From assembly GCF_020514115.1 (NCBI RefSeq), contig NZ_VTKZ01000002.1, forward strand, positions 124,001 to 188,000: DNA of 64,000 nt, in the 5' to 3' direction. This document shows, piece after piece, positions 7,976-12,866 of the stretch. Position numbers and translations under genes: made by a program. The first letter of the stretch is position 1. Each line of letters begins with the position of its first letter. A model generated the notes under the pieces. The model saw nothing but the letters and a program-made list of their open reading frames with translations. It did no database searches and was not told where the DNA came from. Origin of the DNA: Synechococcus sp. MU1642. Its GTDB lineage: Bacteria; Cyanobacteriota; Cyanobacteriia; PCC-6307; Cyanobiaceae.

Positions 7976-9358
7976 ATGTTGCGAGTTGCGGTGATCGGTG
8001 GCGGCCCTAGTGGCTCCTGTGCTGCCGAAATTCTGGCCAAGGCAGGAATTGAGACTTGGCTGTTCGAGCGCAAACTCGACAACGCCAAACCGTGTGGTGG
8101 GGCCATCCCGCTTTGCATGGTTGAAGAGTTCGACCTTCCTGACGAAATCATCGACCGCAAGGTCCGCAACATGAAGATGATTTCCCCCTCCAACAGGGAG
8201 GTGGACATCAAGCTCGACCCCCTCGGCTACGACGAAAACGCCTACATCGGCATGTGCCGTCGTGAGGTGTTCGATGCATTCCTGCGCAACAGGGCAGCAG
8301 ATCTGGGCACAACCCTGATCAATGGCCTGGTGCAGAAAATCGACACCGGCACCGACCGTCAGGGCCCTTACACCATCCATTACGCCGACTACAGCGGCGG
8401 TGGCCCCACCGGTGAGCCGAAGACCCTGGCCGTTGACCTGATCATCGGTGCCGATGGCGCAAACTCACGGGTGGCGAAAGCGATGGACGCCGGGGATTAC
8501 AACGTTGCCATCGCCTTCCAGGAACGGATCAAGCTTCCTGCTGAAGAGATGACCTATTACGAAGATCTGGCAGAGATGTACGTCGGAACGGACGTCTCAC
8601 CTGACTTCTATGCATGGGTGTTCCCCAAATATGACCACGTAGCGGTGGGAACGGGAACCATGCAGCAGAACCAGAGCCTGATCAAGGGTCTGCAGAAGGG
8701 CATCCGCGAGCGGGCCAACAAGCGTCTGTTCCAGGGTGAAGTGATTAAGGTGGAGGCGCATCCGATTCCTGAGCACCCCCGTCCGCGCAGGGTCGTGGGT
8801 CGTATGGCGCTTGTGGGTGATGCAGCGGGCTATGTAACCAAGAGCTCCGGTGAAGGCATTTATTTCGCTGCCAAAAGCGGACGGATGTGTGCCGAAGCGC
8901 TCGTTGAAATCTCCAACAACGGTGCTTCCATTCCCACCGAAAAACAGATCAAGTCGACTTACCTCAAGCGCTGGGATCGTAAGTACGGTGCCACCTATGT
9001 GGTGCTCGACATTCTCCAGCGAATCTTCTACCGCAACGACGCTGCCCGGGAAGCCTTCGTAGAGATGTGCGACGACAAGGACGTGCAGAAGCTGACCTTC
9101 GACAGCTACCTGTACAAGCGGGTGGTGATGATGAACCCCTGGCAGCAGATCAAGCTCACCCTCCGCACCCTGGGCAGCCTGATCAGAGGAGAGGCCCTGG
9201 CTCCATCCGATTACAACCCTGTTCCTTCGGCTGTTGGTCGTTCAGACGGCGATTTCCTTGCGGAGGAAGCAGCCCAGCAGATCAAGGCCCAGGCCGGAGA
9301 GTCCAAGGGGCCCAACTCCAAGGGTTCCGAGTCGAAGGAAAAGGCCGGCGTCTCCTGA
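7976..9358 (+). CDS. chlP: Geranylgeranyl diphosphate/chlorophyllide reductase ChlP
   Basis: NADPH-dependent flavoenzyme that reduces the geranylgeranyl group to phytyl for chlorophyll a and tocopherol. The FAD-binding Rossmann motif VIGGGPSGSCAAEIL lies right at the N-terminus, followed by 'ERKLDNAKPCGGAIP', strongly conserved in ChlP. A second FAD motif 'RMALVGDAAGYV' sits near residue 280. Length (460 aa) is usual. The C-terminal tail rich in Ser, Lys and Gly is lineage-variable. Divergent from the VanY-type gene. Confidence 0.97.
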   Translation: MLRVAVIGGGPSGSCAAEILAKAGIETWLFERKLDNAKPCGGAIPLCMVEEFDLPDEIIDRKVRNMKMISPSNREVDIKLDPLGYDENAYIGMCRREVFDAFLRNRAADLGTTLINGLVQKIDTGTDRQGPYTIHYADYSGGGPTGEPKTLAVDLIIGADGANSRVAKAMDAGDYNVAIAFQERIKLPAEEMTYYEDLAEMYVGTDVSPDFYAWVFPKYDHVAVGTGTMQQNQSLIKGLQKGIRERANKRLFQGEVIKVEAHPIPEHPRPRRVVGRMALVGDAAGYVTKSSGEGIYFAAKSGRMCAEALVEISNNGASIPTEKQIKSTYLKRWDRKYGATYVVLDILQRIFYRNDAAREAFVEMCDDKDVQKLTFDSYLYKRVVMMNPWQQIKLTLRTLGSLIRGEALAPSDYNPVPSAVGRSDGDFLAEEAAQQIKAQAGESKGPNSKGSESKEKAGVS

Positions 9359-9393: not shown

Positions 9394-9582
9394 TTAGTTG
9401 CGAGGCTCCATCGCTTTGCCAGAGGCATCCTTGATTTGCTCAATCCCTCGCTCAAGGTTCTTGGCGGAGGATCTTTCTTTCTTGACCGTCGACCATATGT
9501 TGATGGCGTAAACAGCGGCAGCAGCAAAGATCACCGCCGCAATGTCGGTTCCCAGACCATTGCCACCTTGGCGGATCAGCAC
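9394..9582 (-). CDS. Small single-pass membrane protein, unknown function
   Basis: 62 aa from a GTG start. One transmembrane helix (TDIAAVIFAAAAVYAINIW) is followed by a charged, helical cytoplasmic-looking tail (KKERSSAKNLERGIEQIKDA). This organisation, and the hairpin downstream in its direction, make it a plausible real gene convergent with chlP. I do not recognise the family. The GTG start is not backed by a clear Shine-Dalgarno sequence. Confidence 0.6.
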   Translation of the reverse strand: MLIRQGGNGLGTDIAAVIFAAAAVYAINIWSTVKKERSSAKNLERGIEQIKDASGKAMEPRN

Positions 9583-9678
9583 AGGCTGCTGGATGTTTTT
9601 GTCTCTTGATCAGGCAGTCCGGCTGAATGGACTGGCCACTGCTTAACCGCAAAGGTCAGCGGTGACATTTATTTGGAT

Positions 9679-9692
9679 TGAATCGATTCAAA
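9679..9692. repeat. Left copy of a 14-bp direct repeat (TGAATCGATTCAAA)
   Basis: Identical to 10711-10724, which lies inside the 3' end of glyS. Its first 12 bases are a perfect palindrome. The two copies bracket about 1 kb of AT-richer DNA carrying orphan small ORFs, as duplicated attachment or target sites would. A chance match of a palindrome cannot be excluded. Confidence 0.5.
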
Positions 9693-9741
9693 CAATTTTT
9701 GGGCCTGAGACCCTTGTTTTTGCAATGATTCTCAGAGAACG

Positions 9742-9767
9742 TGTATGCCCACGATGTATGCCCACAT
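9742..9767. repeat. Tandem 13-bp repeat built on TGTATGCCCAC
   Basis: TGTATGCCCAC occurs at 9742-9752 and again at 9755-9765. A degenerate version of the same paired motif (TATGCCCA then ATGTATGCC) occurs at 10633-10651, near the other end of the islet. It may be a recombination or protein-binding site. Confidence 0.55.
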
Positions 9768-9818
9768 TGTCTAGTAGGTATTCCGCCTCTAGAAACTGTG
9801 GAGTCATGCGCACCATGG

Positions 9819-10070
9819 ATGCAGCTCAACGTTGAGAAGGGTCTGATCGGAGCAGCTGTCCTTGGAGCTCTTGTCCTGATTGCACCGATAGCGAAGCAGT
9901 CCAAGGAGTTCGTGAACTGCGTGAAGAATGCTGAGACCGGGATCGTCAACCTGTCTGGCGTTGAGTTCACCGACGTGGATGGTGAAGGTGGCTTCATCGA
10001 GCGCCCAGTTGCCGTTCACTACTGCAACGGCGGTGACATCACCAAGTACCTGAAGCTGGTGGGTCAGTGA
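9819..10070 (+). CDS. Small membrane-anchored protein of unknown function
   Basis: 83 aa from ATG 9819; a start at 9741 is possible but would translate the tandem repeat. An N-terminal hydrophobic helix (GLIGAAVLGALVLIAP) precedes a soluble part with two cysteines (FVNCVKNAE and HYCNGG). I do not recognise the family. It shares one base with the next gene, so the two are probably co-translated. Lies in the islet between chlP and glyS. Confidence 0.6.
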   Translation: MQLNVEKGLIGAAVLGALVLIAPIAKQSKEFVNCVKNAETGIVNLSGVEFTDVDGEGGFIERPVAVHYCNGGDITKYLKLVGQ

Positions 10071-10321
10071 TGAAAGCTTTGCTGGCTGCTGCTCTGCTTT
10101 TTGCCTCGACTGCACCTGCTGCGTTGGCTCAGAAGGAGATCCCTAAGTCTGAAGGTCATGACCAGTGCCCACTGGGTTACGTCAACACGCTCGGGACTAC
10201 CTGTGTCTCCCCCATCTATTACGAGGTGGCGCCTACCAACGGCAAAGCCTGCAAGGAGGGGTGGATGAACATCAGTGCCGGCTATTGCAAGAAGAAGAAA
10301 GGTCCCTTGGGAATCCTCTGA
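10070..10321 (+). CDS. Small secreted Cys-containing protein of unknown function
   Basis: 83 aa from ATG 10070, overlapping the previous stop as TGATG. A clear Sec signal peptide (MKALLAAALLFASTAPAALA, cleavage after ALA) is followed by about 63 residues with four cysteines (HDQCPLGY, TTCVSP, KACKEG, GYCKKK), which could form two disulfides, and a basic C-terminus. Function unknown; the product should be periplasmic or extracellular. No homologue was recognised by eye. Confidence 0.65.
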   Translation: MKALLAAALLFASTAPAALAQKEIPKSEGHDQCPLGYVNTLGTTCVSPIYYEVAPTNGKACKEGWMNISAGYCKKKKGPLGIL

Positions 10322-10338
10322 TCAACCTTGGGCCTGCC

Positions 10339-10518
10339 TTGAAACCTTTACTAAACGCTGGCCAGGTGCTTGCTTCGGTTGTTGCATAGCCAGCTTTGGC
10401 TGAGGAGTCGAGGATGCTTGAGGAGAAGCTTCTCTACTGCGAAGAAGTGGTGGAGCAAGTCGATGACTTCAACGACTGGAGTCAGAACTTCGAGGCCTGC
10501 ATGGCTTCCTCGTATTGA
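10339..10518 (+). pseudogene. Remnant of a third small secreted protein, interrupted by TAG
   Basis: From TTG 10339 the frame reads a hydrophobic stretch (PLLNAGQVLASVVA), hits TAG at 10387-10389, then continues PALAEESR, a typical signal-peptidase site. It goes on through an acidic 36-residue tail with two cysteines (LLYCEEV, FEACMAS) to TGA at 10516-10518. A signal peptide split by one stop is most simply a nonsense mutation. Alternatively, translation from ATG 10414 would give a 34-residue cytosolic peptide. Seen in sequence; decay is inference. Confidence 0.45.
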
Positions 10519-10694
10519 CGAGAGAGGTCCCCCAACAGATAAGCAGAAATATGAAGATAAGTGCAGGCGGCACCCAGCGCTGGAAGTAGTAACTCTCTCC
10601 GCCCTTCCTTCGGGTCAGACAATTCGCAAATTTATGCCCAATATGTATGCCTTATGTCGGCAAGAATCCCTTGATCTCAATGTGATTATGGGGA
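10519..10694. other. AT-richer intergenic stretch ending the islet
   Basis: No coding signal was recognised between the broken peptide and the glyS stop. The only structure seen is the degenerate TATGCCCA/ATGTATGCC pair at 10633-10651, echoing the tandem repeat at 9742-9767. Confidence 0.4.
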
Positions 10695-12866
10695 TTAGCC
10701 CTCTGCCTTCTGAATCGATTCAAATTCAGCCAACACCGAGGCCTGATTGCGCAGAACGGCCAAAAGGTTGAGGCGATTGAGTCTCAGCGCGGAATCGTCG
10801 ACCATCACCATGACGCTGGTGTCACCGTCAAAGAAGGCCTGAAGAGCCGGAGTTGCCGCGACAAGCGCATCGGCGAGGGATTGATAAGACCGCTGCTGAG
10901 CCAGTGGATGCAGCTGCTCCAGAGCTGCGAACAGATCCTTCTCACTGGCTGACTCGAATCGATCGGGCTGAACCACATTGCGGGCCACAAGCTGATCCCG
11001 TGGCAGATCACCTTTTTCAGCAAGTTTGGCTGCCCGTTGCACCACCGCCTGGACGGCATCCAGCTGACCGCTGTCTCGAAGGTCACGCAACAGCTGAATC
11101 CGTTGTTTCACATCCAGTGGATCACTGAGCAGACGCTGGCTAGAGACGGCATCACCAGCAACAGCCTGCACCAGATCAGGAGCAAAGCCGTCGTCTTCCA
11201 GTTGGGACACGATCCGCTGCCGCAGCAGCTGACAGAGGTCGTTGTGAAGTTGGCTTGAATCCACCCCAAAGGCAGGGAAAAGAGAAGCCCACTCCGCCAC
11301 GGAGTTGTTGAGAAAAGCCATGAGGTCAAGGCGCCAAGCCATGCCCCAGAGAATCTGCACAACACCATTGCCGGCCCGCCGCAAGGCATAGGGGTCGGAG
11401 GATCCTGTCGGCCGCTCTCCCTTAGCAAAGATGCTGAGGAGCAGCTCAAGCCGTTCCGCCAAGGCCACAACTGCTCCTGCAAGGGTTGCGGGCAGGGCAT
11501 CACCGGCGCCCCGGGGCAGATAGTGCTCCACCACAGCGAGAGCGACATCGCGGGGTTCTCCCTCCTCCAGGAGGTATTTGCCCCCCATCAAGCCCTGAAG
11601 TTCAGGGAACTCGCCCACCATTTGGCTAACAAGATCGTTCTTGCAGAAATGAGCGGCACGCTGGGCCGCATCCACCACGCTCTGATCAAGATCGAGTTGC
11701 TTCAACAGCAGCCCCGTGAGCCGCTCGATCCGCTCGGAGCGGTCAAGAAGACTGCCCAGCCCTTCAGCGAAGGTGACGCGATCAAGGGCTTCACGCCGAG
11801 ATGCGCTGGACTGACGTCGGTCAACATCCAGGAAAAATTCAGCATCCGCCAGGCGCGCTCCAAGCACGCGTTCATTGCCACGAACGATTAAGGAAGACGC
11901 CGGGGCCAGGCCATTGCTCACCAACAAAAACTCGGGCCGAAGCACAGCCTCAGCAGTGAGTCGAAGCGGGTCAGCCTCCAGGCCAGGCACCTGCAGTGGC
12001 ACATAACGCTGGTGAGCCTGCATCACCGTGCTGATCACCTCCGGAGGAAGCTGCAGGAACCGTTCAGCAATGGTCCCCTCGAGAATCCTGGGATCTTCAA
12101 CCAGGTCCACCAGTTCTTCGAACAGAGACTCCGGACAGTCGGGTGTTCCATTGGCCGCCTGAGCCGACTGATCAAGGCTGGTGCGAATCCGTTTGGCCCG
12201 CTCCGCACGATCAACAACAACGCCAGCGGCGGCGAGGGTTTCACCAAACACCTCCGCTGATGCGATGGACAGTGATTCGTCACCATGGAGACGGTGGGCA
12301 CGGCTCAAACGATCGCTGCGGACCTCGGGGTCAGCGCTGTCGAGCACCACAGGGATTACCTCTGACCCCTTGAGCGCTAACAGCCAGCGGATGGGGCGGC
12401 TGAAGCGCTGGGCTCCGGTGCCCCAGCGCATGAACCGCCGACCCTGGAGAGCATCAATCCATTGGGGAATCAGCCCCTGAAGCAGTTCAACACTGGCTTC
12501 ACCGGGGGTGAGCACGGTTGCGAAAACGCAAGGACCCTTCGGAGTTTCACGCTGCTCTAGGGCTGAAGGATCAACATCGCAGCGCTTGGCAAAACCGATC
12601 GCCGCAGGCCCTGGGATGCCGTCCTTGAAGGCCTGAGCCACAGGAGGGCCCTTGCGGTCTTCCTGAAGATCGGGCTGGCGCTCCTCCAGCTCAGCTACGG
12701 AGACCACCAGACGCCGGGGGGTGCCGAACACCGACACCGATCCATGGCCCAGCCTTGCCTCACGCAGATCACGACTGACCCGCTGCTGCAGCTGGTCAAG
12801 CGCTTGATTGACAAAATCGGCAGGAAGCTCCTCGGTGCCGATTTCCAGAAGAAAGGTTGCCGTCAC
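10695..12866 (-). CDS. glyS: Glycyl-tRNA synthetase beta subunit
   Basis: Beta chain of the bacterial alpha2-beta2 glycyl-tRNA synthetase, needed for tRNA-Gly recognition. 723 aa, full length. It opens with 'TFLLEIGTEELPADFV', the hallmark N-terminus of GlyS, and carries the HD-like region 'FCKNDLVSQMVGEFPELQG'. GTG start at 12866. The alpha subunit gene is not in the window. Divergent from the sulfite reductase gene. Confidence 0.96.
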   Translation of the reverse strand: MTATFLLEIGTEELPADFVNQALDQLQQRVSRDLREARLGHGSVSVFGTPRRLVVSVAELEERQPDLQEDRKGPPVAQAFKDGIPGPAAIGFAKRCDVDPSALEQRETPKGPCVFATVLTPGEASVELLQGLIPQWIDALQGRRFMRWGTGAQRFSRPIRWLLALKGSEVIPVVLDSADPEVRSDRLSRAHRLHGDESLSIASAEVFGETLAAAGVVVDRAERAKRIRTSLDQSAQAANGTPDCPESLFEELVDLVEDPRILEGTIAERFLQLPPEVISTVMQAHQRYVPLQVPGLEADPLRLTAEAVLRPEFLLVSNGLAPASSLIVRGNERVLGARLADAEFFLDVDRRQSSASRREALDRVTFAEGLGSLLDRSERIERLTGLLLKQLDLDQSVVDAAQRAAHFCKNDLVSQMVGEFPELQGLMGGKYLLEEGEPRDVALAVVEHYLPRGAGDALPATLAGAVVALAERLELLLSIFAKGERPTGSSDPYALRRAGNGVVQILWGMAWRLDLMAFLNNSVAEWASLFPAFGVDSSQLHNDLCQLLRQRIVSQLEDDGFAPDLVQAVAGDAVSSQRLLSDPLDVKQRIQLLRDLRDSGQLDAVQAVVQRAAKLAEKGDLPRDQLVARNVVQPDRFESASEKDLFAALEQLHPLAQQRSYQSLADALVAATPALQAFFDGDTSVMVMVDDSALRLNRLNLLAVLRNQASVLAEFESIQKAEG
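10711..10724. repeat. Right copy of the 14-bp direct repeat, within glyS
   Basis: Identical to 9679-9692. It encodes part of the last residues of the glyS product (FESIQ), so the gene end is intact while a copy of this sequence lies 1,032 bp away. This is the arrangement expected when an element integrates at a gene 3' end, though no integrase is present. Confidence 0.5.

Follow-up and report, generated by a model that had tools for sequence, protein, structure and literature searches.

A small islet at the 3' end of glyS in a marine Synechococcus genome as the probable integrase-less remnant of an integrative element

The window analyzed in this study, i.e., the whole stretch of 64,000 nucleotides from Synechococcus sp. 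MU1642 (genome G000 in our numbering), contains an islet of approximately 1 kb between chlP and the 3' end of glyS. The initial annotation had described a 14-bp direct repeat at both edges of this islet, one copy being in the last glyS codons, a tandem repeat near the left edge with a degenerate copy near the right edge, and DNA richer in AT, and the results agreed with it on these points: exact copies of TGAATCGATTCAAA were located at both edges, the second within the last codons of glyS (stop at 10695), a tandem pair of TGTATGCCCAC at the left has a degenerate counterpart pair, TATGCCCAATATGTATGCC, at the right, and the GC content is 0.50 to 0.55 in comparison to approximately 0.58 to 0.61 in the surroundings. 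The left tandem repeat is unusual, its score being reached by 0.2% of background segments. No match to an RNA gene was found in the islet with Rfam. The features of the locus are as follows.

7976 to 9358, plus strand: chlP, the neighbor across the site.
9669 to 9692, minus strand: displaced native glyS 3' end (TTT GAA TCG ATT CAA TCC AAA TAA, F E S I Q S K stop), with the same tail as the intact glyS of empty-site relatives.
9679 to 9692, plus strand: left core repeat TGAATCGATTCAAA, the far junction, attL.
9742 to 9765, plus strand: TGTATGCCCAC tandem pair (9742 to 9752 and 9755 to 9765, period 13), likely arm-type sites of the integrase, common to the end of the G002 element.
9819 to 10070, plus strand: ORF A, 83 aa, predicted membrane-anchored small protein with a 92% identical relative in G013.
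10070 to 10321, plus strand: ORF B, 83 aa, small secreted protein with four cysteines, from a family that is widespread among picocyanobacteria.
10339 to 10518, plus strand: ORF C, with an in-frame TAG at 10387 to 10389 in comparison to the intact G013 copy.
10511 to 10627, minus strand: integrase N-terminus fragment, corresponding to residues 2 to 40 of the G002 integrase (51% identity, E 1.3e-5).
10631 to 10651, minus strand: degenerate arm-type repeat pair at the glyS-side end (TATGCCCAATATGTATGCC at 10633 to 10651).
10695 to 10710, minus strand: element-supplied last glyS codons (KAEG stop), confined to occupied genomes.
10711 to 10724, plus strand: right core repeat TGAATCGATTCAAA inside glyS, attR.
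10695 to 12866, minus strand: glyS, the target gene.

Just downstream of glyS, at 9394 to 9660 of the window on the minus strand, there is also a conserved gene for a membrane protein of 75 to 90 aa, which is disrupted in both the window and G015 as well as in several empty-site genomes; a link between the insertion and the decay of this small host gene was considered and dropped, as the gene is also broken where no insertion is present.

The two copies of TGAATCGATTCAAA are the only exact ones across the 2.1-Mb genome of the window strain, and both also match the opposite strand because the first 12 bases are palindromic. The rarity of the repeat was nevertheless dropped as a proof of insertion, since the number of exact 14-mer pairs lying 100 to 1500 bp apart in the window was 2 in comparison to 1.1 expected by chance under an order-1 Markov model, i.e., about one comparable pair is expected per window. 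The repeat alone thus proves nothing, and the case therefore rests on the comparison with relatives.

To this end, glyS was found in 32 of the 34 genus genomes, and loci were obtained for 30 of these. The distance from the end of the chlP match to the end of glyS was 310 to 434 bp, with no insert, for 27 of the 30 loci, in comparison to 1343 bp for the window genome and 1417 bp for G015, while for G002 it was so long that chlP fell outside the locus; occupied sites were thus seen solely in these three genomes. The comparison of this interval across marine Synechococcus had been proposed in the initial annotation, with an empty site carrying one repeat copy as the supporting outcome, and such sites were indeed found: in the closest relatives, the core is present once, within the 3' end of glyS, and the native tail reads FESIQSK or QSN. 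When positions 9693 to 10724 were taken out of the window, the remainder aligned over 635 bp to the two closest empty sites with 91% to 92% identity and no gap at the join, so that the insertion is precise. All three occupied genomes carry a glyS tail of FESIQKAEG or FESIQKAEA, while the native glyS end is kept in the window beside the left core. A replaced glyS tail together with a displaced native tail is the trace that would be expected of a site-specific recombinase entering a gene end, and the locus combines direct repeats at both ends, one of them restoring the end of glyS, with a single-copy empty site in relatives, as is expected of an integrative element at the 3' end of a protein gene. 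The alternative that the islet is ancestral host DNA, which the relatives lost by deletion between the repeats, is hardly credible: even though such a deletion would likewise leave one core copy, the distribution contradicts it, as the islet is absent from the 27 empty loci, including divergent species that lack the exact core, the interiors of the occupied genomes are unrelated to one another, and the native glyS tail sits at the far edge.

An intact element was found at the same site in G002, where 9.2 kb of DNA lie between two core copies (a 16-bp repeat) at the same base as the window insertion. This element encodes a tyrosine recombinase of 406 aa (L033:294-1514), the start of which is approximately 80 bp from the glyS-side core; it matches PHROG integrases with an E value of 3e-28 and carries Pfam DUF6538 at its N-terminus, while its match to Pfam Phage_integrase is under the curated cut-off. 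Of the canonical catalytic residues R-K-H-R-Y, the Lys, the second Arg, the GH and the Tyr are present by alignment, and His occupies the position of the first catalytic Arg, given which the activity of the enzyme is not certain from its sequence. Homology between the islet and the G002 element covers approximately 86 bp on the left and 165 bp on the right, and the right-hand part spans some 39 codons of the integrase, so that where G002 has a whole tyrosine recombinase next to one end of its element, the window retains just the N-terminal fragment. With both ends and the integrase N-terminus matching those of G002, the islet is an element that has retained its termini but lost almost the entire integrase. 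G002 holds the sole intact glyS-type element in the genus sample; no cargo common to its interior and the islet was detected, and its tandem repeat on the integrase side was not significant by itself. In two short ORFs of the G002 element, both on the minus strand (L033:2634-2936 and L033:7005-7235), a common WGFVDDRDL pattern precedes several cysteines, and the one ORF that was scanned had no family match. A second short remnant lies at glyS in G015; its left core differs by a single mismatch and its interior is unrelated. G015 was also where the attR pattern recurred among the named genomes, apart from one Oceanobacillus copy, which was taken as a chance match.

The islet is therefore very probably what is left, minus the integrase, of an integrative element that uses a tyrosine recombinase to enter the 3' end of glyS. 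The initial annotation had likewise noted, from the window alone, a resemblance to the cargo of an element that integrated at a gene end and lost its integrase. An origin by illegitimate or homologous recombination that ended at a short repeat by chance and needed no site-specific recombinase could draw on the fact that 14-bp repeat pairs alone are not uncommon, and on the G013 cassette described below, whose 178-bp flanking repeat looks like another kind of event. However, the insertions of three genomes coincide to the base, and in one of them an integrase adjoins the core; in the window, a piece of that integrase persists along with the replaced glyS tail; the G002 element largely refutes this explanation, which we regard as very unlikely.

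For the remnant of an integrative element, we infer the recombination chemistry, the role of the arm sites and the order of losses as follows. The recombinase would have crossed over within TGAATCGATTCAAA, and the element's own last codons would have replaced the glyS tail (QSK to QKAEG), leaving the native tail at the far edge, with the tandem TGTATGCCCAC repeats at both ends likely serving as arm-binding sites. Later internal deletion or change would have removed nearly all of the integrase gene together with the element body, and the end state would be a relic that keeps both ends and a small-protein cassette consisting of A, B and a broken C. On excision, TTTGGATTGAATCGATTCAAATTC would be the expected junction, either of a circular form or of the restored empty site.

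Regarding the cargo, the interior of the islet (islet positions 141 to 847) was found to be 83% to 89% identical to a four-gene cassette, A-M-B-C, in G013. The cassette A-M-B or parts of it also occur in G003, G024 and G018, relatives of A alone occur in G022, G028 and G033, and the secreted four-cysteine family of ORF B is present in 97 of 201 family genomes. The initial annotation had listed only orphan small secreted or membrane ORFs here; the predicted localization holds, with A membrane-anchored and B secreted, but the proteins are not orphans, since other members of the genus and family encode relatives. The window copy lacks M, a GATGAA repeat marking the junction, and its C is interrupted, while A and B are intact; in comparison to G013, the dN/dS ratio is 0.13 for A and 0.05 for B, a ratio that covers the whole divergence and not the time since insertion. 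The G013 cassette itself (L091:7495-9092) is flanked by a direct repeat of 178 bp, 94% identical; the duplicated segment comprises a small gene's 3' end and the DNA that follows. For the cargo tested, Pfam, NCBIfam and PADLOC gave no assignment that could be accepted, and an attempt to derive a function from structure was dropped, as the AlphaFold model of ORF B was of moderate quality (pLDDT 75, pTM 0.55) and matched nothing in the PDB better than E 0.6.

The distribution of the cassette bears on another possibility, that the islet is a live minimal non-autonomous cassette, with two att cores, arm sites and a cargo of small proteins, which is moved in trans by related glyS-type integrases; if true, it would be the site-specific-recombinase counterpart of a MITE. 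Both cores are identical, the left arm pair is perfect, and A-M-B is also found at other loci in relatives, as such a cassette would suggest, but those copies lie outside these cores, the islet has a degenerate right arm, no M and a broken C, and a search of the window genome found no other integrase of this family. We thus consider this possibility unlikely.

Related integrases were found at the ends of other protein genes: in eleven genomes at the 5' end of a csd-like aminotransferase gene, and also at the 5' end of dapF and the 3' end of yajQ; for those at marC and purC adjacency alone was seen. The csd core occurs twice on one contig, 6 to 14 kb apart, in G005, G013, G021 and G025, which are genomes with an integrase there, in comparison to once in 15 other genus genomes, and G027 has two copies on separate contigs. 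At yajQ, a repeat of 19 bp is found at a distance of 14 kb. A search for an exact distal core at dapF gave nothing for the G008 element, and dapF is therefore assigned as a target from adjacency (G008, G033 and G002) and an imperfect repeat seen in G131. Elements of approximately 6 to 15 kb were observed at the 5' end of the csd-like aminotransferase gene in L096, L097, L099, L102, L103 and L104, several of which carry the core in duplicate and have tandem repeats resembling arm sites at either end. A tandem repeat with a period of 12 to 13 precedes the integrase at better than the 5% level in 13 of 19 clan members, and in several csd elements the words of this repeat recur at the far end; these repeats and TGTATGCCCAC in the window are likely to be arm-type binding sites. 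The replacement of the first catalytic Arg by His (GxHxSE) was seen in all seven integrases checked from the glyS/dapF/yajQ/marC branch (L033:294-1514, L036, L037, L120, L121, L123 and L128), with His at the second Arg too in the G008 integrase, in comparison to the csd branch, whose integrases retain the first Arg. No tRNA gene was found in the scanned clan loci.

Integrative elements with tyrosine recombinases are known at the 3' or 5' ends of housekeeping protein genes, e.g., the IMEs at guaA, rpsI, rplL and trmE, and their decay to remnants that keep attL and attR gives what are called CIMEs (PMC5704250). Like a CIME (PMC5704250), the islet lies at a gene end with attL and attR preserved and only a fragment of its integrase left, and by analogy it may well work as one; the difference is that in the nearest intact element, that of G002, no conjugation or mobilization gene was recognized (Pfam, PHROGs and PADLOC on the tested proteins, most of which had no family match), so that the islet is only a candidate for descent from an ICE or IME. 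The G002 element resembles the IMEs at gene ends (PMC5704250) in having its integrase at one end, and differs from those at guaA, rpsI, rplL and trmE in that its target is glyS and its host a marine picocyanobacterium. The full-length G002 integrase gave no tblastn hit in the 50,697 phage records searched; plasmids yielded a single weak and partial match, and viral contigs gave no attR-pattern match and no confirmed relative of the integrase. A viral origin, either as a prophage or as a known phage satellite, was thus rejected, the integrase having no relative confirmed in these phage and viral collections and just profile-level similarity to PHROG integrases.

The tycheposons of Prochlorococcus, as PMC10872708 describes them, are bordered by tRNA genes. 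They too are chromosomal elements that carry cargo and a tyrosine recombinase in marine picocyanobacteria, but no tRNA gene was found in the window, L033 or L034, i.e., none beside the G002 and G015 insertions, and the islet was accordingly not assigned to them under that description. No report of an element at glyS, or of this integrase clan, was found in the open literature searched, the coverage of which was incomplete. Insertion at gene ends and decay of the CIME type are kinds already described. Here, a small integrase-less islet of marine Synechococcus has been traced to a precise insertion and to an element of the parent type that is still extant, and the glyS 3' end is added to the integration sites seen in picocyanobacteria. 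In contrast to tycheposons with their bordering tRNA genes, the clan sits at the ends of protein-coding genes (glyS, csd, dapF and yajQ), and therefore island surveys that look beside tRNA genes or for intact integrases alone would miss such loci.
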